A stretch of DNA of 64,000 nucleotides from Roseomonas sp. OT10 (lineage in GTDB: Bacteria > Pseudomonadota > Alphaproteobacteria > Acetobacterales > Acetobacteraceae), in assembly GCF_020991085.1 (NCBI RefSeq), contig NZ_CP087719.1:2934001-2998000 (forward strand). The letters are read 5' to 3'. Below the pieces are notes generated by a model. That model made no database searches and was not told the DNA's origin. It was given only the letters and a program-made list of their open reading frames with translations. The position numbers were made by a program, and so were the translations under genes. Below, piece after piece: positions 6,929 to 51,805 of the stretch (its first letter is position 1; each line of letters starts with the position of its first letter).

Positions 6929-7948
6929 ATGCGCGCCCCTGGGCCTACCCCTGGGGGGCCTACCTCTGGGGGGCCTACCCCTGGAGGGCCTACCCCTGGG
7001 CTCGCCGCGGACGCGCCGATCCCCCCCGGGCCGATCCCCCCCGGCGGGCCGGGCCCGGCCGGCGGCGGCCCCGGGGCCGACCCGCGGCGGGACAACCTGC
7101 GCGGGGCGCTGTTCATGCTCGGCGCCGCGCTGATGTTCTCGGTCGAGGCGCTGTTCCTGCGCTGGATGGCGGCGCGCGGGATCCCCATCGGGACGCAGCT
7201 GCTGGCCCGCTGCCTCGGCCAGCTCGCCTGGGTGGCACCCTCGATCATGGCGGCGGGGCTGCTGGTGATGCGCACGCGCCGTCTGGGGCTGCACCTGCTG
7301 CGCGGGGTGTGCAGCCTGGCCACCTGGGGCCTCTACTTCCTCTCCTTCGCCTTCCTCGACCTGGCCAGCGCCACCGTCCTCTCCTTCACCAACGTCATGT
7401 TCACCTCAATGCTCGCCGGCCCCGTGCTGGGCGAGCGGGTGGGGCCGGCGCGCTGGGCCGCGACTCTCGCGGGGCTGGCCGGGGTGGCGCTGATGCTGCG
7501 GCCCTGGTCGGCCGGGGCGGCCATCCCCCTGCCGGGCGTGGCGGCGGCGCTGGCGGCGGCGCTGTGCTGGTGCGGCATCACCCTGACCTCCCGCGTCCTC
7601 ACCCGCACCGAGCGGACGCTGACCGTGGTGGGCTGGGTCGGGGTGGTGACGACGCTGAGCGTGCTGCCGATCGCCGTGGCCGGCTGGCAGCCGCTGGCCT
7701 GGGGCGACATCGCCATCCTGGCGGTGTTCGGGCTGGTGACGCCGGGCATCCTGTGGCTGACCACCGAGGCGCTGCGCCATGGCGAGGCCAGCGCGGTGGG
7801 GCCGCTGCAGTACATGCGCCTGCCCGTGGTGGCGCTGGCGGGGTGGTGGCTGTTCGCGGAGGTGCCGGACGGCGCCGCCTGGCTGGGGGCGGCGGTGATC
7901 GTCGGCAGCGCCCTGACCATCACCGCCGTGGAGGCGCGGCGGCGGTGA
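6929..7948 (+). CDS. DMT superfamily (EamA) transporter with repeat-bearing N-terminus
   Basis: The 339-residue protein contains two EamA domains (about ten transmembrane helices), the architecture of drug/metabolite exporters in the inner membrane. Before the first helix there is a ~50-residue Gly/Pro tail whose start is encoded by four near-identical 15-bp tandem repeats at 6941-7000 (GPTPG units). The ATG at 6929 follows a GTGAGG ribosome-binding site. Its stop overlaps the GTG start of the next gene by four bases. The two proteins share the blocks ATVLSFT and AGPVLGE, so they are tandem paralogues. The substrate is unknown. Confidence 0.85.
   Translation: MRAPGPTPGGPTSGGPTPGGPTPGLAADAPIPPGPIPPGGPGPAGGGPGADPRRDNLRGALFMLGAALMFSVEALFLRWMAARGIPIGTQLLARCLGQLAWVAPSIMAAGLLVMRTRRLGLHLLRGVCSLATWGLYFLSFAFLDLASATVLSFTNVMFTSMLAGPVLGERVGPARWAATLAGLAGVALMLRPWSAGAAIPLPGVAAALAAALCWCGITLTSRVLTRTERTLTVVGWVGVVTTLSVLPIAVAGWQPLAWGDIAILAVFGLVTPGILWLTTEALRHGEASAVGPLQYMRLPVVALAGWWLFAEVPDGAAWLGAAVIVGSALTITAVEARRR
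6941..7000 (+). repeat. Four 15-bp in-frame tandem repeats
   Basis: Four consecutive copies of gggcctacccctggg (at 6941, 6956, 6971 and 6986), each differing by at most one base, encode Gly-Pro-Thr-Pro/Ser-Gly units at the N-terminus of the DMT transporter. The near-identity suggests recent expansion or contraction by slippage. Confidence 0.9.
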
Positions 7949-11639: not shown

Positions 11640-12614
11640 ATGGTCACACGCCGCACGGGCATCGCCGGGGCCCTGGCCGCGGCCGCGCTCGGCTTCGCCG
11701 GGCCGGCCAGGGCGCAGGCGCCCGGCTGGCCGCAGGTCCTGGTCCTCGCCACCGCCTCGCCCGGCGGTACCTACCACGCCTATGGCCGGGGGCTGGCGAA
11801 GGTGCTGGGCCGCGCGCTCGGCCTGCCGATCTCGCTACGGGAGACCAGCGGCCCGGCGGAGAACATCCGCCTGCTGGAGGCGGGCGAGGCCCACATCGCC
11901 TTCGTCACCCTCGGCGCGGCGCTGCGCGCCTGGAGCGGCGGGGAGGAGACGGGCGGCCAGCCGATGCGCGCGATGCACGCCGCCTTCGCCATGTACGACA
12001 CGCCCTTCCACTTCCTGGCCCGGCGGGATTCGGCGATCGATTCGCTGTCCGCCCTGGACGGCAAGCGCCTGGGCGTGGGGCCGGAGGGCGGCACCGGGGC
12101 GACCTACACGCCGCCGATGCTGGCGGCGCTGGGGCTGCGGGCGCAACCGGTGCATGGCAGCTGGGAGGCGCTGGCAGAGGCGCTGCGGGCCGGGCAGATC
12201 GACGCGCTGGCGGTGGCGGCCGGCACCCCCTTCCCCGCCGTGGCCGACCTCGAGGCAAAGCGCGCGATCCGCTACCTGCCGCTCTCCCGCGCGCAGATCC
12301 GCACGATCCGGCTGGCCCTGCCGGAACTCGGCGCCTCGACCATCCCGCCGGGCACCTATCCCTCGCTGATGGAGGGCTACGAGACGGTCGGACTGTACAA
12401 CCTGGCCGTCGTGCACCGGTCCCTGCCCGTCGACCTGGTCTACGACATCGTCCGCGCGGTCTTCGACGCCCATGCGGAGATGATGGAGGCGCACCCGGCC
12501 GCCGCAGCCACCGTGCCCGCGAACTTCACGCACAACACGCTGCTGCCCTTCCACCCGGGCGCGCTGCGCTACTACGGCAACCGTGCCGTGCCGGGCACCG
12601 TGATCGGCGACTGA
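11640..12614 (+). CDS. TAXI family TRAP transporter solute-binding protein
   Basis: This 324-residue periplasmic receptor has a twin-arginine-like signal (MVTRRTG, hydrophobic stretch, ending ARAQA) and the TAXI landmarks: TASPGGTYHAYG, SGPAENIRLLEAGEAHIAFV, GKRLGVGPEGG and the C-terminal VYDIVRAVFD helix. It binds a small organic acid or similar ligand for a TRAP transporter. No TRAP membrane gene is nearby, so the permease is encoded elsewhere or is absent. Position after the ring-opening amidohydrolase suggests a ligand from that pathway. An AGGGAG ribosome-binding site supports the ATG at 11640. A copy of the intergenic repeat begins right at the stop codon. Confidence 0.85.
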   Translation: MVTRRTGIAGALAAAALGFAGPARAQAPGWPQVLVLATASPGGTYHAYGRGLAKVLGRALGLPISLRETSGPAENIRLLEAGEAHIAFVTLGAALRAWSGGEETGGQPMRAMHAAFAMYDTPFHFLARRDSAIDSLSALDGKRLGVGPEGGTGATYTPPMLAALGLRAQPVHGSWEALAEALRAGQIDALAVAAGTPFPAVADLEAKRAIRYLPLSRAQIRTIRLALPELGASTIPPGTYPSLMEGYETVGLYNLAVVHRSLPVDLVYDIVRAVFDAHAEMMEAHPAAAATVPANFTHNTLLPFHPGALRYYGNRAVPGTVIGD

Positions 12615-12785
12615 TACGGACGGCATGATGCCTTGATCCGTGCCGGCGTAGGGTTCGCCCGTGGCCTGGGGGCAAGGCGCTGCCTCGCCCCCGTACCCCC
12701 AACTCCGCCAGGACCCGCTGATCCCCTTTTGGGGGCCCTGGACCCGAGGAGTGCTGCCGCGCGGCTGTCCGTGACGGGGTCGTGA
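12612..12785 (-). repeat. Intergenic palindromic repeat, partial copy C
   Basis: Starting at the TGA of the TAXI gene, this stretch is the reverse complement of the right-hand half of the copy at 18638-19051. Matching landmarks are ATACGGACGGC at the edge, GATCCGTGCCGGCG, the GC-rich GGGGGCAAGGCGCTGCCTCG block, CTCCGCCAGGACC and GACGGGGTC. The rest of the element (the part with CCCGCTTGTGGCCCC) is missing. The remaining bases to 12923 hold no gene I can recognise. Confidence 0.75.
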
Positions 12786-18637: not shown

Positions 18638-19051
18638 CATACGGACGGCAGGACGACCTGACCGGTCGCGTTCCGGCGTCGGACCGGGAGGGGACGCGTC
18701 CCCTCCCAGACCCTCCCCTGCCGGGGCCACAAGCGGGCCCCGGACCCCGCTGGGAGTCTGACGCTTCATGGCTGCCGTCAGCCTGCGGGCTGGTCCCGGG
18801 GAGAGCGCGGACAGGCGGGACTCTGAAAAAGCTTCAGAAGTCGTCAGCGAGTGCGGATACCGTACCCGCCGAGGAGCCAAGCTCCTCGGCGCTGTGACCC
18901 CGTCGCAGGCTGTCCCGCGGCAGCGCCAAATGGGTCCAGGGCCCGCAGGGTCCTGGCGGAGTGGGGGTACGGGGGCGAGGCAGCGCCTTGCCCCCGGGCC
19001 ACGGGCGCATCCCGCGCCGGCACGGATCAGCGCATCACGCCGTGCGTATCA
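18638..19051 (+). repeat. Intergenic palindromic repeat, full copy A
   Basis: The element fills the gap between the solute-binding protein gene and sixA. The left part (18681-18756) matches 26457-26533 with one substitution and one single-base indel. The right part holds CCCGCCGAGGAG...CTCCTCGGCG and the TGGCGGAGTGGGGGTACGGG block. The two ends are imperfect inverted repeats of about 35 bp (ATACGGACGGC on the left; ATACGCACGGC read from the right). Several internal hairpins are evident. No open frame in it looks coding. Confidence 0.85.
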
Positions 19052-26407: not shown

Positions 26408-26836
26408 TACCGGCGGCCGGATGATCTGACCCGTCGTGCTGCCGTGTTCCTGCGGTGGACCGGGAGGGGACGCCGTCCCCTCCCAGACCCTCCCCTGCCG
26501 GGGCCACAAGCGGGCCCCGGTCCCCGCTGGGAGTTGGCTTTGCGCGGTGAGCGTCAGCCTGCGAGTTGAACCCTGACGGAGCTCGGACAGGCGGGACTCC
26601 AGAATAGCTTTGAAGGCGTCAGCGAGGGCTGAGGCCGGACCCGCCGAGGAGCGTGGCTCCTCGGCGCCTTGACCCCGTATCAGGCTGTCCCGCGGCAGCG
26701 CTGATCGGGTCCAGGGCCCGCAGGGTCCTGGCGGAGTGGGGGTACGGGGGCGAGGCGGAGCCTTGCCCCCGGGCCACGGGCACCCTGCCGGGACGCATCA
26801 AGGCATCGCACCGCCGCGCCGGGTGCAGGCCGCGGC
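26404..26836 (+). repeat. Intergenic palindromic repeat, full copy B
   Basis: The element begins at the stop codon of the LLM oxidoreductase gene and has the same orientation and order of blocks as copy A. The left block (26457-26533) is nearly identical to 18681-18756. The hairpin CCGCCGAGGAG...CTCCTCGGCG, the CAGGCTGTCCCGCGGCAGCG block and TGGCGGAGTGGGGGTACGGG are shared. The right end read in reverse (GATGCCTTGATGCG) resembles the left edge of copy C. No gene is contained. Confidence 0.85.
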
Positions 26837-41354: not shown

Positions 41355-41696
41355 CGCGGGCCGCTCACCCGGTCGCACCGGGGGGAAGGCTCCGCCTTGC
41401 CCCCCGGACCCCCCATCCGCCAGGAGCAGTGCCCCTGGCCCCCCTTTCACAGACGCGTCGGCACGCCGGGAAGCATCGCTCCCCGGCGACGAGGGCCTCA
41501 GCACGCGCGGCCTTTGATTCTTCCTCGGTTCCCCGCCTGCCCGCGCTCTCCCCGGGTGTAGCCCGCAGGCTGACACCGACCACGCGGCGCCAGCCTCCCG
41601 GCGGGGTCCGGAGCCCGCTTGTGGCCCCGGCGGAGGGGGGCCCGGGGGCGAGGCAGCGCCTCCCCCCGGTCCGCCGCCGGCCACGGCGCGCGGCAT
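41355..41696 (-). repeat. Intergenic palindromic repeat, copy D
   Basis: This fills the whole gap between two convergent genes and is in the reverse orientation to copies A and B. Shared blocks with the complement of copy A include GCCTGcCCGCGCTCTCCCCGGG, AGCCCGCAGGCTGAC, and GGGGTCCGGAGCCCGCTTGTGGCC. A CCCCCCATCCGCC...GGAGC segment and CCCCCTTTCACA are shared with the segment inside imuB. The right edge falls at the stop codon of the histidine kinase gene. Confidence 0.8.
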
Positions 41697-45953: not shown

Positions 45954-48900
45954 TCAGCGGAAGTCACGCGAGGGCGGCAGGCGCGCCGGCGGACCGGGGC
46001 GCATCACCTCGTCGGCGCGGGACAGCAGACGGTCCGCCCAGGCGGCCGGGCTTTCCAGCCGGTGCAGCCCGTCCAGCAGGTCGGAACGGTCCTCCAGCCG
46101 GCGCACCACCAGGTGCACGATGGGGGTTTCGGTGCGCCGGGGATCGTCCTCCCGCTCCACCCGCCCCTCCGCCACCAGCAGCCGGGCGGCCACCACGGCG
46201 GCGCGGTGCGCGGCGACCACGGCCGGGTAGAGGACGAGGTTGGCGGTGCCGTGCTCGTCCTCGACGGTGAAGAACACCACCCCCTTGGAGGAGCCCGGCC
46301 GCTGCCGCACCAGCACCAGCCCGGGCAGGCGCAGCCGCGCGCCGCGCCGGGCATCGCGCAGGCGGCGCGTATCGGCCAGGCGCATCGCGGCCAGGGCCGG
46401 ACGCAGCAGCGCCAGCGGGTGGTCGCGCAAGGTCAGGCCGGTGGCGCCGTAGTCCAGCACGGTGCGCTCGCCCGCCGTCATGCGCGGCAGGGCGGGCGTG
46501 GCGGCAGCGGCGGCGAAGAGGGGAAGCTCCTCCGGCCCCCGCGCCGGCTCCACCGCCTGCGCCGCCCAGAGCGCGGCCCGCCCGTCCAGGCCGAGGCCGC
46601 GGAAGGCATCCGCCTGGGCCAGGGCGGCGGCGGCATCGCGCGGCAGGCCGGCGCGGCGCACGCAATCGGCCAGCGAGGCGAAGGGGCGCGCCGCGACGAT
46701 CCGCGCCCCCGCCTCGGCGGAGAGCCCCGCCACCAGGCGCAGCCCCAGGCGCAGCGCCAGCCCGCCGGCGCTGCCCGGATCGGGCTCCAGCGTGCAGTCC
46801 CAGGCGCTGGCCGCGACATCGGCGGGGCGGATGGCGACGCCGTGCTCGCGCGCGTCGCGGACGAGCTGCGCGGGGGCGTAGAAGCCCATGGGCTGGCTGT
46901 TCAGCAGGGCGCAGGCGAAGACCGCCGGGTGGTGGCGCTTGATCCAGGCGGAGGTGTAGACGAGCTGCGCGAAGGAGGCGGCGTGGCTCTCCGGGAAGCC
47001 GTAGCTGCCGAAGCCCTCGATCTGCTGGAAGACGCGCTCGGCGAAGTCGCGATCGTAGCCTTTCGCCAGCATGCCGCTGACGAACTCCTCGTGGAAGACC
47101 GGCACCTTGCCGTGCCCCTTGAAGGTGCCCATGGCGCGGCGGAGCTGGTCGGCGCGCGCGGGGGAGAAGCCGGCCGCGACGACGGCGATGCGCATCGCCT
47201 GCTCCTGGAACAGCGGCACGCCGTAGGTCTTCCTCAGCACCTCGGCCAGCTCGGGATTGGGGATGTCGGGCGCCTCCTCGCCGTTCCGGCGGCGCAGGTA
47301 GGGATGCACCATGTCGCCCTGGATCGGGCCGGGGCGGACGATCGCCACCTCCACCACCAGATCGTAGAACTCCTTCGGGCGCAGCCGCGGCAGCATGTTC
47401 ATCTGCGCCCGGCTCTCTACCTGGAACACGCCCACCGTGTCGGCGCGCGAGAGCATGGCGTAGGTCTCGCGGCAATCGGCGGGGATGGATTGCAGCGTGT
47501 GGCGCCTTCCGCCATGCGCCGCGATCAGGTCCAGCGCGCGGTGCAGGCAGCTCAGCATCCCCAGCCCCAGAACGTCCACCTTCAGGATGCCCAGCGCCTC
47601 GATGTCGTCCTTGTCCCACTCGATGGTGGTGCGCCCCTCCATCGCCGCCGCCGTCACCACCGCCAGCTCCACCAGCGGCCCACGCGTGATGACGAAGCCG
47701 CCGACATGGGTGGAGAGGTGGCGCGGGAAGCCCACCGGCTGGCCGCCCATGCGGAACGGGTCCTCGCCGCCGGTCAGCTCCTCGGCCAGCGCGATGGTCC
47801 GGGCCAGGCGCGGGTCGCCGTCGGGGTCCAGCCCCGCCTCGCGCGCCACCTCGGCCAGCGAGGCGCCGCCCGGCCCCCAGCTTCCCTTGGCCAGCCGCGC
47901 GGTGACGTCCTCGCTCAGCCCCATCGCCCTGCCCGCCTCGCGGATCGCGCCGCGCGGGCGGTAGCGGCTGAGCGTCGCGGCGATGGCGGCGCGGTCCCGG
48001 CCGTAGCGTTCGTAGATGTGCTGGATCACCTCCTCGCGCCGCTCGTGCTCGAAATCCACGTCGATGTCGGGCGGCTCGTCGCGGTCGATGGAGAGGAAGC
48101 GCTCGAACAGCAGGTCGTGCTTCGTCGGATCGACCGCGGTGATGCCCAGCACGTAGCAGACGGCGGAATTGGCCGCCGAGCCGCGCCCCTGGCAGAGGAT
48201 GCCCCGCTCCCGCGCGAAGCGCACGATCTCCTGCGCCGTCAGGAAATAGGGCGCGTAGTCCTTCCGCGCGATCAGCCGAAGCTCGTCCGCGACCTGGCGC
48301 CGCACCGTCTCCGGCGCGCCCTCCGGCCAGTGCTCGCGCATCGCCGCGGCCACGCGGCGCTCCAGCGTCCGCTGCGCGGTCAGGCCTGGCTCCAGGATCT
48401 CGTCCGGGTATTCGTAGCGCAGCTCGCGCAGCGAGAAGCGGCAGGTCTCCAGCACGCGCGGGATCGCCGCCATCGCCTCCGGCCAGCGGGCGAAGAGACG
48501 CGCCATCTCGGCCGGCGGCTTCAGATGCGCCTCCGCATTCGGCTCGGCGGCATAGCCGAGCTCGTCCACCCGCAGGCCCAGGCGGATGGCGGTGAGCAGG
48601 TCGGCCAGCGCCTGCCGCCGCGCGACGTGGTAGCGCGTGCCGCCCGCGACCAGCAGCGGCTGGCCCATGGCGGCGAGCCGGTCCAGCCGCTTCGCGTCGT
48701 CGCCCGCGAAGCGATAGGTCGCGGCGCAGAACAGCGGCAGCGCCAGCCGCCGGCGCAGGGCGGCCGCATCGCGCCGCAGCCGGTCCGCGAAGGCCTCCCC
48801 CGGCTGGTCCGGCGGCACCAGCGCCAGGACGCAGCCCTCCACCCCCGCGATCAGGTCGTCGCGCGTCAGCCGGCATTCGCCCTTCGGCGCGTTCATCCGG

Positions 48901-49205
48901 CCATGGCTGAGCAGCCGCGCCAGCCGCCCGTAGGCAGCGCGGTCGGCGGGCCAGGCGAGGTATTCCATCCCGTCCGGCAGCACCAGCCGGCAGCCGACGA
49001 GATGGCGAAGAGGTCCTTTCCCCGCCTCGTTCAACTGCTCCACCGCCACCAGCCCGCGCACGCTGCCGGCGAAGGAGTTGCGGTCGGCGATGCCCAGCGC
49101 GGCATGGCCCAGCGCGGCGGCCGTCGCCGCCAGCTCGTGCGGGTGCGAGGCGCCGTCGAGGAAGCTGAAGTTCGACAGCGCCGCCAGCTCGGCGAAGAGG
49201 GTCAC
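45954..49205 (-). CDS. dnaE2: Error-prone DNA polymerase DnaE2 (ImuC)
   Basis: The 1083-residue protein is a C-family polymerase of the DnaE2 type. It has an N-terminal PHP domain (LSNFSFLDGASHPHEL), the palm motifs GRGSAANSAVCYVLGIT and PPDIDVDFEHERREEV with catalytic aspartates, and a C-terminal OB domain. DnaE2 does SOS mutagenesis with ImuA and ImuB. The GTG at 49205 follows GAAGG and lies 10 bp after the imuB stop; the frame is open far upstream but that is only shadow of imuB. It is last in the LexA-controlled imuA-imuB-dnaE2 cassette. Confidence 0.95.
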   Translation of the reverse strand: MTLFAELAALSNFSFLDGASHPHELAATAAALGHAALGIADRNSFAGSVRGLVAVEQLNEAGKGPLRHLVGCRLVLPDGMEYLAWPADRAAYGRLARLLSHGRMNAPKGECRLTRDDLIAGVEGCVLALVPPDQPGEAFADRLRRDAAALRRRLALPLFCAATYRFAGDDAKRLDRLAAMGQPLLVAGGTRYHVARRQALADLLTAIRLGLRVDELGYAAEPNAEAHLKPPAEMARLFARWPEAMAAIPRVLETCRFSLRELRYEYPDEILEPGLTAQRTLERRVAAAMREHWPEGAPETVRRQVADELRLIARKDYAPYFLTAQEIVRFARERGILCQGRGSAANSAVCYVLGITAVDPTKHDLLFERFLSIDRDEPPDIDVDFEHERREEVIQHIYERYGRDRAAIAATLSRYRPRGAIREAGRAMGLSEDVTARLAKGSWGPGGASLAEVAREAGLDPDGDPRLARTIALAEELTGGEDPFRMGGQPVGFPRHLSTHVGGFVITRGPLVELAVVTAAAMEGRTTIEWDKDDIEALGILKVDVLGLGMLSCLHRALDLIAAHGGRRHTLQSIPADCRETYAMLSRADTVGVFQVESRAQMNMLPRLRPKEFYDLVVEVAIVRPGPIQGDMVHPYLRRRNGEEAPDIPNPELAEVLRKTYGVPLFQEQAMRIAVVAAGFSPARADQLRRAMGTFKGHGKVPVFHEEFVSGMLAKGYDRDFAERVFQQIEGFGSYGFPESHAASFAQLVYTSAWIKRHHPAVFACALLNSQPMGFYAPAQLVRDAREHGVAIRPADVAASAWDCTLEPDPGSAGGLALRLGLRLVAGLSAEAGARIVAARPFASLADCVRRAGLPRDAAAALAQADAFRGLGLDGRAALWAAQAVEPARGPEELPLFAAAAATPALPRMTAGERTVLDYGATGLTLRDHPLALLRPALAAMRLADTRRLRDARRGARLRLPGLVLVRQRPGSSKGVVFFTVEDEHGTANLVLYPAVVAAHRAAVVAARLLVAEGRVEREDDPRRTETPIVHLVVRRLEDRSDLLDGLHRLESPAAWADRLLSRADEVMRPGPPARLPPSRDFR

Positions 49206-49215
49206 GCCCCCGCCT

Positions 49216-50976
49216 TCATGCCAGGAAGCCGTGCAGGAACCAGCGCATCGGCACGTCGCGGCCGACGCGGCAGACCCAGAGCCGCTCGCCCCCTTCCACC
49301 TCCACGCGGAAGTAGTCGCGGAACTCCCGCGCCGCCGCCTCCGGCCCGCCGCAGGGGTGCAGCCGCTCCGGCCCCTCCGCCGCGCGCACCCGCAGCGCGC
49401 GGCCCCGCCAGGTGAGCCGCGCCGGCGGCCCGTCCGGCAGGGGCGCGATCGCCTCCACCGGTTCCGGCGGGGACAGCAGGCGCACGGGGCGCGGCCGGTC
49501 ATGCCAGTGCGCCGGGGTCTCCCTCGCCATCCCCAGCGGGTCACCGTGTGCCACCGCCTCCTCCGGCAGGTGGGCGGCGCGCGGGTCCAGCCGCCAGACG
49601 CGCAGCCGGTCGCCCAGCCGGTCCAGCAGACGCGCCAGCGCCTCCCGCTCCGCCCCCTCGCCGCCCGCGAAGCCGTCCTGCGCCGCCGCCAGCGGATCGG
49701 TCGCCTCGGCCGAGAGCGCCAGCCGGTCGAAGCCGAAGCCCGGCGCCAGCCGCTCCAGCCTCTCGCGGAACAGCCGCTCCAGATGCGCGGGCGCCCGCAT
49801 CGGCAGCGCCGTGCCCACCGCCACCTCCTGCACCCCGCCATCCACCCCATGCGCGCGCAGCACCACGCGCCGTGCCCCACGCCCGGCCTCGGCCAGCCGC
49901 AGGCACAGCGCCTCCAGCAGCCGGGCGAAGACGGCGTCCACCGCCTCGCGCGTCACGATCGGCTCCAGCAGCTCGCGCGCCACGGTGAAGTCGGGCGGCG
50001 GCCGCAGCGGGCGGATCGGCCGGCCCCGCAGCCCCGCCACCTCGTCCAGCGCCGTGACCAGCCCAGCCCCGAAGCGCGCCGCCAGCTCCGCCCGGGGCAG
50101 CGCCCGCACCGCCCCCACCTGCCACAGCCCCAGCCGCCGCAGCGCCGCCCGCACCGAAGGCTCCACCGGCAGCACCGAGAGCGGCAGCGGATCGGTCGCC
50201 GCCGCCTCCCGCCCCGCCGGCACCACCACGCCCGCCCCGGCCCGCGCCAGGGCCAGCGCCGCCCCGGCCGTGCCCGCGACGGCGCCGACCGCCGTCACCC
50301 CCAGCCGCGCCAGCCGCCCCACCGCCGCGTCGCGCAGCCCTGGCTCGCCCTGCCCCGCAGCACAGCCGGTGATGTCCAGCAGCAGCGCCTCCGGCGCCTC
50401 CACCCCCGCCAGCGGCGTGAACCGCATTGCCCAGAGCCCCAGCCGCCGCAGCAGCGCCGCATTCGCCGCCGCATCCTCCGCCACCAGCCGCACCGCCGGG
50501 CAGGCCGCCCGCGCATCCGCCACCGCCAGCCCCGCCCGCAGCCCGGCCGCCGCGGCCGCGTCGTCCACCGCGGTCAGCACCTGCCGGGGGCCGCGCTGGG
50601 TCCAGAGGGCGATGGGGGGCGGGGCGTCCTGGCCCCCGGAGGGAAGCCGCTGCCGGCCTTCGGCATCGACGCAGTGCGTCGATCCCCCCGATGCCCCCCA
50701 TCCGCCCGGAGCGGAGCCCCTGGACCCATGTTCGTCAGAGGGCGGCGCTGCCGGAGACGGCAGCGCATGTGTGAAAGGGGGTCCAGGGGGGCGGAGCCCG
50801 CCCTGGGGCCACGGGTGCGACGCCTCCATCGCCAACCGGTCCAGCGCCAGCCGCGGCAGATGCAGGGCGAGGAGGCGACGGCCGGGCTGGGCGGACGCGG
50901 CGTCGGGGGGTGGCGGGGCGGCGGCGGGCGCGCCGGGCGGGGTCAGGCGCGGCGGGCGGCAGAAGCGGCGTCGCAT
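49216..50976 (-). CDS. imuB: ImuB, inactive Y-family polymerase, with in-frame repeat insertion
   Basis: ImuB is a catalytically inactive Y-family polymerase-like protein that bridges ImuA, DnaE2 and the beta clamp. The product is 586 residues, longer than typical (~500-530). After LALHLPRLALDRLAM the fold is interrupted by ~65 Gly/Pro/Ser-rich residues and resumes at IALWTQRGPRQVLTAVD. The extra DNA (about 50615-50820) is palindrome-rich and resembles the intergenic repeats of this window. The frame stays open. The ATG at 50976 overlaps imuA by 34 bp and has GGAG 8 bases upstream. Confidence 0.88.
   Translation of the reverse strand: MRRRFCRPPRLTPPGAPAAAPPPPDAASAQPGRRLLALHLPRLALDRLAMEASHPWPQGGLRPPGPPFTHALPSPAAPPSDEHGSRGSAPGGWGASGGSTHCVDAEGRQRLPSGGQDAPPPIALWTQRGPRQVLTAVDDAAAAAGLRAGLAVADARAACPAVRLVAEDAAANAALLRRLGLWAMRFTPLAGVEAPEALLLDITGCAAGQGEPGLRDAAVGRLARLGVTAVGAVAGTAGAALALARAGAGVVVPAGREAAATDPLPLSVLPVEPSVRAALRRLGLWQVGAVRALPRAELAARFGAGLVTALDEVAGLRGRPIRPLRPPPDFTVARELLEPIVTREAVDAVFARLLEALCLRLAEAGRGARRVVLRAHGVDGGVQEVAVGTALPMRAPAHLERLFRERLERLAPGFGFDRLALSAEATDPLAAAQDGFAGGEGAEREALARLLDRLGDRLRVWRLDPRAAHLPEEAVAHGDPLGMARETPAHWHDRPRPVRLLSPPEPVEAIAPLPDGPPARLTWRGRALRVRAAEGPERLHPCGGPEAAAREFRDYFRVEVEGGERLWVCRVGRDVPMRWFLHGFLA
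50615..50820 (-). repeat. Palindromic repeat segment inserted in imuB
   Basis: This segment contains three palindromes: ATCGACGCA-g-TGCGTCGAT (50665-50683), GCGCTGCCG-gaga-CGGCAGCGC (50745-50766) and CCCCTGGACCC...GGGTCCAGGGG (50717-50727 with 50779-50789). The CCCCCCATCCGCC block and TGTGAAAGGGGG are shared with copy D. It has no stop codon in the imuB frame. Exact ends are approximate because they are set from where ImuB homology stops. Confidence 0.75.
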
Positions 50977-51689
50977 GCGTCGGGCTCCAGATCCTCGGCG
51001 GTCAAGGTTTCGGTGCCGAGGCGCCAGGCGACGTTCCACAGGCCCGGGCGCCCGGAGCGGGTGCGGAGGAGCTCCAGCGTCCAGTGCGGGTCGCCCAGGT
51101 CGTGGCGGGACAGGCCGGTGCCGGCACGGCCGGAGACGCGCCAGCGGGTGGTGGCCAGGGACGGCCCGGCGGCCGCCTCCGGCACGTCGTCGCGGAGGAG
51201 GAGGCCGATGCCGCCGCCCGTCTCGGCCGCGAGCTGGAGGCGGCGGGCGGCGGTGGGGTCGGGGGTCTCGTCGAGCAGGAGGGCGCCGGTCACGGCGGGG
51301 CAGCGCAACACCTCCTCCATGGCCCAGAGCGCATCGTTGCGGCCGCGCGCCTGCACCAGGATCAGGCGGGAGGGCGGCAGGCCGAAGCGGGACAGGCCGG
51401 GCGGCCAGGCGTCGGGGCGGCGGGCGATCCAGAACACCGTGCCGCCGCTGCGCGCGAGGAGCAGGGCGGCGAAGCCGGCCGCGGCGCCGGGGCCGGCGGC
51501 CAGCAGCTCGTGCAGCGCCGCGCGCGGCAGGCCGCCGCCACCCGGCAGCGCCGCGTCGATGGGGGGCGCGAGCGGCACGGCGCGCGAGGCGGCACGGGAG
51601 AGGGCTTCGGCGGCGCCGGCGCGTTCCTGGCGCGCGATGCTGGCACGCAACGCGGCGAGGAGGGCCGGCCTGTCCATCGGGGGGCTCAT
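50943..51689 (-). CDS. imuA: ImuA, RecA-like SOS mutagenesis protein
   Basis: ImuA is a RecA-fold protein of the DnaE2 mutasome. From the ATG at 51689 (MSPPMDRPALLAALRASIARQE) it is 248 residues; the domain has the GGGLPRAALHELLA, LARSGGTVFWIARR and TRWRV blocks of the family. The P-loop is degenerate, as is usual in ImuA. The frame is open to 51767, but that stretch contains the LexA box, so a downstream start is required. It is first in the imuA-imuB-dnaE2 cassette. Confidence 0.85.
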   Translation of the reverse strand: MSPPMDRPALLAALRASIARQERAGAAEALSRAASRAVPLAPPIDAALPGGGGLPRAALHELLAAGPGAAAGFAALLLARSGGTVFWIARRPDAWPPGLSRFGLPPSRLILVQARGRNDALWAMEEVLRCPAVTGALLLDETPDPTAARRLQLAAETGGGIGLLLRDDVPEAAAGPSLATTRWRVSGRAGTGLSRHDLGDPHWTLELLRTRSGRPGLWNVAWRLGTETLTAEDLEPDACDAASAARRA

Positions 51690-51724
51690 GGACAAGGATG
51701 CGACTCCGGAAGTGGATTCAGTAT

Positions 51725-51739
51725 GTTCTCTATATGTTC
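51725..51739. promoter_or_regulatory. LexA (SOS) box of imuA-imuB-dnaE2
   Basis: GTTCTCTATATGTTC is an exact match to the alphaproteobacterial LexA box GTTC-N7-GTTC. It lies 36 bp upstream of the imuA ATG in a small AT-rich island, the expected position for repression of the mutasome promoter. Confidence 0.92.
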
Positions 51740-51805
51740 CAGCATGGAGTTGCGTCGGGTCAAGCACGTCCTGCCTTCCCCGGTCCCGTTGGCCGTGGCC
51801 GACGG

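Follow-up and report, generated by a model that had tools for sequence, protein, structure and literature searches.

A probable MITE-like palindromic element carried in frame within the imuB gene of Roseomonas sp. OT10

The window analyzed here, a stretch of 64,000 nucleotides from the genome of Roseomonas sp. OT10, carries imuA, imuB and dnaE2 next to one another on the minus strand, and a palindromic element lies inside the imuB reading frame (Table 1). The imuB product gave IMS and IMS_C Pfam matches that are barely over the cut-off, and its frame starts with GTG (51039), an ATG some 21 codons further in being the other possible start. The score of imuA against NF033429 (70.8 bits) is under the curated cut-off of 150, and the DnaE2 neighbor matched the NF004225 model over nearly its full length. 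Among six ImuB loci in named genomes, the top two are from Neoroseomonas (Acetobacteraceae), with 54% and 53% identity. Two additional imuB-dnaE2 loci were found in the same genome, giving three mutasome loci with the window cassette, and an ImuA is recognizable at one of these two. According to the available parts of PMC6511836 and PMC3765255, ImuB is an inactive polymerase whose C-terminal region binds ImuA and DnaE2.

Table 1. Positions of the genes, loci and repeat modules discussed in the text (window coordinates unless a contig is given).
Feature	Position	Strand	Description
imuB	49216..51039	-	607-codon frame; inactive Y-family polymerase subunit; Pfam, Foldseek, alignment with 29 ImuBs
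imuA	50943..51767	-	overlaps imuB start; NF033429 ImuA, E 1.4e-19
dnaE2, error-prone polymerase	45954..49163 (stretch scanned)	-	NF004225, 1261 bits against a cut-off of 939
L181	G000:C2:15000-30000		further imuB-dnaE2 locus, on a 286-kb contig
L182	G000:C1:5298000-5312000		further imuB-dnaE2 locus
Intergenic relative (L108; probably copy D of the preliminary description)	41366..41457		blastn pieces, E down to 1.5e-7
Inserted palindromic element	50623..50824	-	202 bp; in frame, ~68 extra residues; repeat matches, empty relatives
Other terminal repeat	50623..50637		GGCGTCCTGGCCCCC; few bases shorter than intergenic copies; compare GGGGCGTGGCGCTCGTTCCCCGGAGGGAAGG at L104
Module M1	50662..50687		19-nt palindrome with one unpaired center base, ATCGACGCA-G-TGCGTCGAT; stem covaries between lineages
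Module M2 arm	50705..50726	+	consensus CCAGGAGCAGAGCCCCTGGACC; two substitutions in imuB copy
Central hairpin	50745..50766		GCGCTGCCG-GAGA-CGGCAGCGC; 9-bp perfect stem
Module M3	50779..50805	+	GGGTCCAGGGGGGCGGAGCCCGCCCTG
Terminal inverted repeat, well preserved	50805..50824		coding strand GGCGTCGCACCCGTGGCCCC; compare GGCGTGGCGCCCGTGGCCCG at L129; similar ends at L078 and L083

The window ImuB reads ...LALDRLAME, followed by 69 residues (codons 73-141) and then by PIALWTQRGPRQVL, where the closest orthologues, from G003 and G004 (~60% identical), have a single residue (...DLLRTEE-PVALW and ...DLLRVEE-PVVLW, against DRLAME, the 69 residues and PIALW). Compared with these two, the net gain is 68 amino acids or 204 nt, and the site falls between the first helix and the second palm strand. 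The segment was absent from all 29 aligned ImuBs of other genomes, 13 of them congeneric, as well as from both ImuB paralogues of the same genome. These 29 were taken from the 45 other genomes that matched when 60 genomes, including its own, were searched for ImuB (46 matching genomes with its own, at E<=0.001). The 45 include weak matches that could represent other Y-family polymerases, and some of the 29 aligned sequences may be paralogous types rather than orthologues. As the nearest empty-site orthologues are only ~60% identical, the exact junction and a target-site duplication are illegible. The ImuB match in G012 is an 80-residue N-terminal piece (E 2.4e-5), with no full one.

The preliminary description, made from the sequence alone, had put about 65 extra residues at 50615-50820, a position correct to a few bases, and had proposed aligning this ImuB with its relatives and searching the segment against the whole genome. 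The search agrees with the alignment, as the insert DNA matched at least 57 places in the genome with E<=0.001, its own among them (289 first-look candidates, of which 40 were scored), and E was as low as 2e-24 at other places. At up to 3 mismatches the M2 motif gave 62 matches and the M3 motif 7, and M1 gave 50 at up to 2 mismatches, imuB being included in each count; reversed-pattern controls gave 0 for all three, indicating that the repeat is not due to chance. The best single partner for the left half of the imuB copy is L119 (87% over 93 nt), and the DNA shared with the intergenic copy in the window amounts to 84% identity over 44 nt (E 1.5e-7) plus shorter adjoining pieces, as had been claimed. 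Its reading had been staked on relatives not sharing the segment apart from any repeat similarity; 29 of 29 lack it, and the genomic repeats match. An origin of the ~68 residues as an ancestral or convergent feature of ImuB, with no relation to repeats, could draw on the variable length of this loop, since the linkers of L049 and L054 are longer than most, but these are of other sequence, and the empty relatives together with the repeat matches elsewhere in the genome make this explanation highly improbable.

Comparing 29 flanked copies and 55 of the 62 M2-centered copies (imuB included) revealed a composite intergenic element. It starts with GGCGT.GCGCCCGTGGCCC, followed by hairpins such as GTGGGAAGGGC..GCCCTTCCCAC and the M2 arm; this arm is followed by TTCGTAAAAG or an equivalent of it and by a central stem whose sequence varies, and the reverse complements of these parts then lead to the inverted terminal repeat. 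Both ends are clearest in L078, L081, L082, L083 and L129. The imuB copy spans from one terminal repeat to the other, GGCGTCC (50623) to GACGCC (50824), as identified by eye, and judging from its sequence it reads as a shortened, essentially end-to-end version of the intergenic element. Its central hairpin is shorter than in the five copies just named and resembles that of L134, and it is without 27 nt found at L134 between two GGGGGTCCAGGGG direct repeats (one repeat counted in), suggesting an internal deletion. Shortening through its own direct repeats and a deletion in the central stem, before or after insertion, is probable. The insert is a hairpin-forming palindromic repeat, and the three palindromes reported earlier lie within M1, within the central hairpin and at 50789-50799 (GGGC-GGA-GCCC). 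Elsewhere in the window, a 170-bp repeat pair (18837-19006 and 26612-26781, 89% identical) has relatives near 12602-12781 and 41508-41667 and belongs to a wider mosaic repeat set.

The M1 hairpin was compared across nine chosen sequences whose relatedness was uncontrolled: 97.2% of cells were paired and the covariation score was 0.41, compared with 0.10 for shuffled sequences. Neither value was attained by any of 500 shuffles, and pairing was lost when the partners were slid. The number of pairs changed on both sides (3 against 2.2 in shuffles, 178/500) and of further pair types (6 against 4.5, 106/500) was unremarkable. The stem appears to be kept through compensatory change, with the structure rather than the letters being conserved. 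Beyond this genome, the M2 core at up to 2 mismatches occurred 58 times here against once in 14 congeners (in G009). At E<=0.001 the whole segment had matches in at least 9 of the 59 genomes besides its own (up to 13 candidates scored per genome); 8 of these 9 belong to congeners, and the copies there carry their own stem sequences. The broader core CCCNNATCCGCCAGGA was counted 36 times here, 75 in G003, 93 in G004 and 81 in G012 (control 0) and was nearly absent from the other 11 congeners, with 0-3 in each. Taken together, these counts point to a repeat family that is young and local.

We propose that a MITE-like intergenic palindromic element inserted into the palm loop of imuB and is tolerated in a partly redundant, inactive polymerase, and we put the probability of this reading at about four in five. 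A non-coding palindromic element of this lineage, usually found between genes, would have entered imuB in the palm, at the loop that leads from the first helix to the second strand; the remnant would be 202 bp from terminal repeat to terminal repeat, with imuB longer by 204 nt and its frame intact. This retains the core of the preliminary description, in which a repeat that normally lies between genes had come to lie inside a coding sequence, and it builds on the empty site in relatives and on the genome-wide repeat matches. Tolerance may come from a loop whose length varies anyway, from the polymerase being dead and from the two other imuB-dnaE2 loci. It is reasonable that the inactivity of ImuB, itself taken from the literature, favored retention of the insert, and relaxed constraint is possibly a further permissive factor.

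The insert is presumably transcribed and translated as a flexible loop of ~68 residues rich in Gly, Pro and Ser. No in-frame ATG, GTG or TTG occurs in its 69 codons, so that a restart at a common start codon would not be expected there. The AlphaFold model (best of five, four sequences), whose numbering begins 22 residues into the 607-codon frame, had a mean pLDDT of 60.2 and a pTM of 0.45. Residues 34-52 form the first strand and helix, residues 53-115 are under a pLDDT of 50, and over 121-320 17 of 20 ten-residue blocks are at 80-95, with the remaining three at 62-71. The low confidence extends beyond the insert, since 268 of the 585 model residues are under 50, including most of 325-502 outside it. 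The best PDB matches of the model in Foldseek were Y-family polymerases (best E 1.8e-10). The prediction is consistent with a palm that is normal except for a disordered loop.

The segment is too short for an intein and an intein signature was not seen by eye, and an intron has no match to point to, as Rfam gave zero matches across the whole window at gathering thresholds. The only result that would suit removal of the segment before or from the protein is its RNA fold, which is stronger than in shuffles (z -2.61, 1 of 200 shuffles of equal strength). As the other copies sit outside genes, such removal seems highly improbable. Neither a sigma-70-type promoter nor a terminator was found near the insert.

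Of 112 highly conserved columns, 14 are changed in the window ImuB, whereas G003 shows 3 changes and G004 shows 2 in 111 such columns. The EWW of the C-terminal region, shared by the 15 relatives displayed, has given way to CGG in the window protein, suggesting that this ImuB could be losing function. Its branch is also longer (0.49 against 0.27-0.31 on the sister side), whereas the DnaE2 branches are even (0.21 against 0.22). These departures would be expected if the imuB copy were decaying, with an insertion that damaged ImuB, other loci that compensate (the genome has two more imuB-dnaE2 loci) and a frame that is open by accident. However, more distant ImuBs depart about equally (L044 at 18 of 115 columns, L045 at 14 of 115), the relative-rate tests were not significant (p 0.085-0.26) and the adjoining DnaE2 is well matched by its model. 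The 607 codons hold no stop or frameshift and stay open through the conserved flanks. The codon score was -0.22 in the very N-terminal window and -0.17 and -0.34 in the windows from codons 61 and 91, rising to 0.21 to 0.76 from codon 121 on, suggesting that the insert is non-coding in character and that the sequence downstream of it is coding. We regard decay as an unlikely explanation. Relaxed constraint on the window ImuB is possible from these comparisons. Relaxed selection was set aside as a proven cause, as the branch lengths hint at it but the relative-rate and Fisher tests were not significant, and the contrast between ImuB and DnaE2 was not significant either (p 0.46 and 0.43).

The preliminary description had also stressed that the element kept the frame and avoided stops. 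The frame is indeed open through the insert, but this is unremarkable, since 54 of the remaining 61 M2 copies, examined over 204 nt in all six frames, have 46% of these frames open; the shuffled insert had a mean of 2.4 of 6 frames open. By our own arithmetic, this openness and a one-in-three chance of a length divisible by three would let about one in six or seven random insertions pass, so that the in-frame, stop-free state requires no special feature or mechanism of the element, and this openness by default also speaks for decay. Selection would remove insertions that break the frame.

To place this copy among the others, 116 of the 119 motif matches were clustered into 97 places; one M2 match and two overlapping M1 matches, all three on contig C2, were omitted. 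A codon model from 37 window frames, which recovers 92.6% of 810 interior points in its training genes and is weaker near gene ends, was used to score both flanks of every frame open through each place. Scores were obtained for 120 frames, spread over 72 of the places, the other 25 having no open-through frame with enough flank. The best 40 of the 120 were inspected by eye (2 of imuB, 14 in full and 24 by ~80 residues on each side), and imuB was judged to be the sole convincing intragenic copy. It ranked fifth, with four shadow frames above it, and a stricter flank scan overlooks it because of its short N-terminal flank. The other high-ranking frames were rejected as mostly Arg/Pro/Gly-rich shadow frames. 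Among individual candidates, L086 (+) is located upstream of a gene for an ABC protein, L107 (-) seems to extend over two genes, and L141 is a 3-mismatch chance match within a RidA-like gene. For G012, 60 of 81 places were drawn at random and the best 10 frames read, with no convincing coding copy, bringing the intragenic share to 1 of 157 examined places in the two genomes, much lower than what is described for Rickettsia.

The one convincing coding copy, in the 97 places here and 60 of 81 in G012, thus lies in an induced-mutagenesis gene, which could suggest that the insertion alters mutasome activity under selection, as the authors of PMC3733652 speculate for repeat-tagged repair genes. According to the available part of that paper, DnaE2, UvrABCD, RecBCD and Pol I carry such repeats and are often the sole tagged genes of a species. 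Changes found only in the window ImuB were marginally enriched near the site, at 7 of 22 against 26 of 182 within 30 columns (p 0.059) and 8 of 27 against 25 of 177 within 40 columns (p 0.052). The enrichment is gone within 20 columns (4 of 17 against 29 of 187, p 0.49), the predicted loop is unstructured, and a single event cannot demonstrate selection, making this account doubtful at best. It would be similarly speculative to extend it to a general rule, in which lineage-specific palindromic elements are preferentially retained in DNA-damage and mutagenesis genes, with imuB as an independent replicate in a free-living high-GC bacterium and a loop that weakens or readjusts the ImuA-ImuB-DnaE2 mutasome, thereby altering the induced mutation rate; we hold this to be improbable.

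Several known repeat classes resemble the element. Rickettsia palindromic elements (RPEs) are palindromes, ~100-150 bp in length, that lie in frame within many genes of Rickettsia, and one RPE-bearing enzyme was demonstrated to be active, as given in the accessible parts of PMC2229807, PMC10969869 and PMC3767692. Like them, the element is palindromic, falls in the ~100-200 bp range, occurs between genes and in frame in a conserved gene, and its peptide is apparently tolerated. However, the host and architecture differ, as far as descriptions of RPEs allow the comparison, no peptide common to several genes was seen, and coding copies make up 1 of 97 places here against 19 reading frames in Rickettsia in the available text of PMC2229807. 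Recurrent in-frame insertion into many unrelated genes was not found, imuB alone being convincing. The analogy with RPEs drawn in the preliminary description holds for the kind of event, as the two would work alike, but membership is unsupported, given how often RPEs enter genes.

The repetitive extragenic palindromes (REPs) tagged with GTAG or CGTC are also intergenic and occasionally lie in frame in DNA-repair genes, DnaE2 included, as described in the available sections of PMC3733652. These sections report small tagged palindromes inside genes of many bacteria, many of them repair genes such as dnaE2, with the tagged repair gene sometimes the only one in a species, and the authors speculate on mutator effects. 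They also describe REP units of 20-40 bp carrying one of the two tags, whereas the element here is a 202-bp multi-hairpin with terminal repeats that starts with GGCGT, and they report CGTC repeats to be missing from the Acetobacteraceae. Mobilization by a REP transposase was discarded, as the Y1 (IS200/IS605-type) transposase PF01797 had 0 matches in this genome and matched 5 of 14 control genomes.

Bacterial MITEs such as ERIC, NEMIS/Correia, YPAL and RUP share with the element terminal inverted repeats, hairpins, a length of 70-300 bp and no gene of their own, and in-frame fusions are known for several of them. The terminal inverted repeats, the length within 70-300 bp and the non-coding character were all found here; the assignment differs from a full one in that the empty sites are too diverged for a target-site duplication to be established and that the transposase search covered Y1.

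Neither the element nor its insertion in imuB was described among the open-access papers listed in the literature searches, and the available text of PMC3733652 already reports repeats lying in frame in repair genes such as DnaE2, so the imuB case adds to a known kind. Its value lies in being clear-cut and in coming from outside Rickettsia: in a high-GC genome of 5.7 Mb, a palindromic element of the intergenic kind has turned into part of a reading frame, and congeners with an empty site serve, together with the intact paralogues of the same cell, as built-in controls. Again, the single coding case found lies in a gene for induced mutagenesis, and as imuB belongs to a machinery that was repeatedly found repeat-tagged in the earlier survey, whether such insertions are neutral or change mutagenesis becomes directly testable. 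At another place in the window (6941-7000), four tandem 15-bp units (GGGCCTACCCCTGGG, 91% matches) have a unit length that is a multiple of three and are possibly coding.
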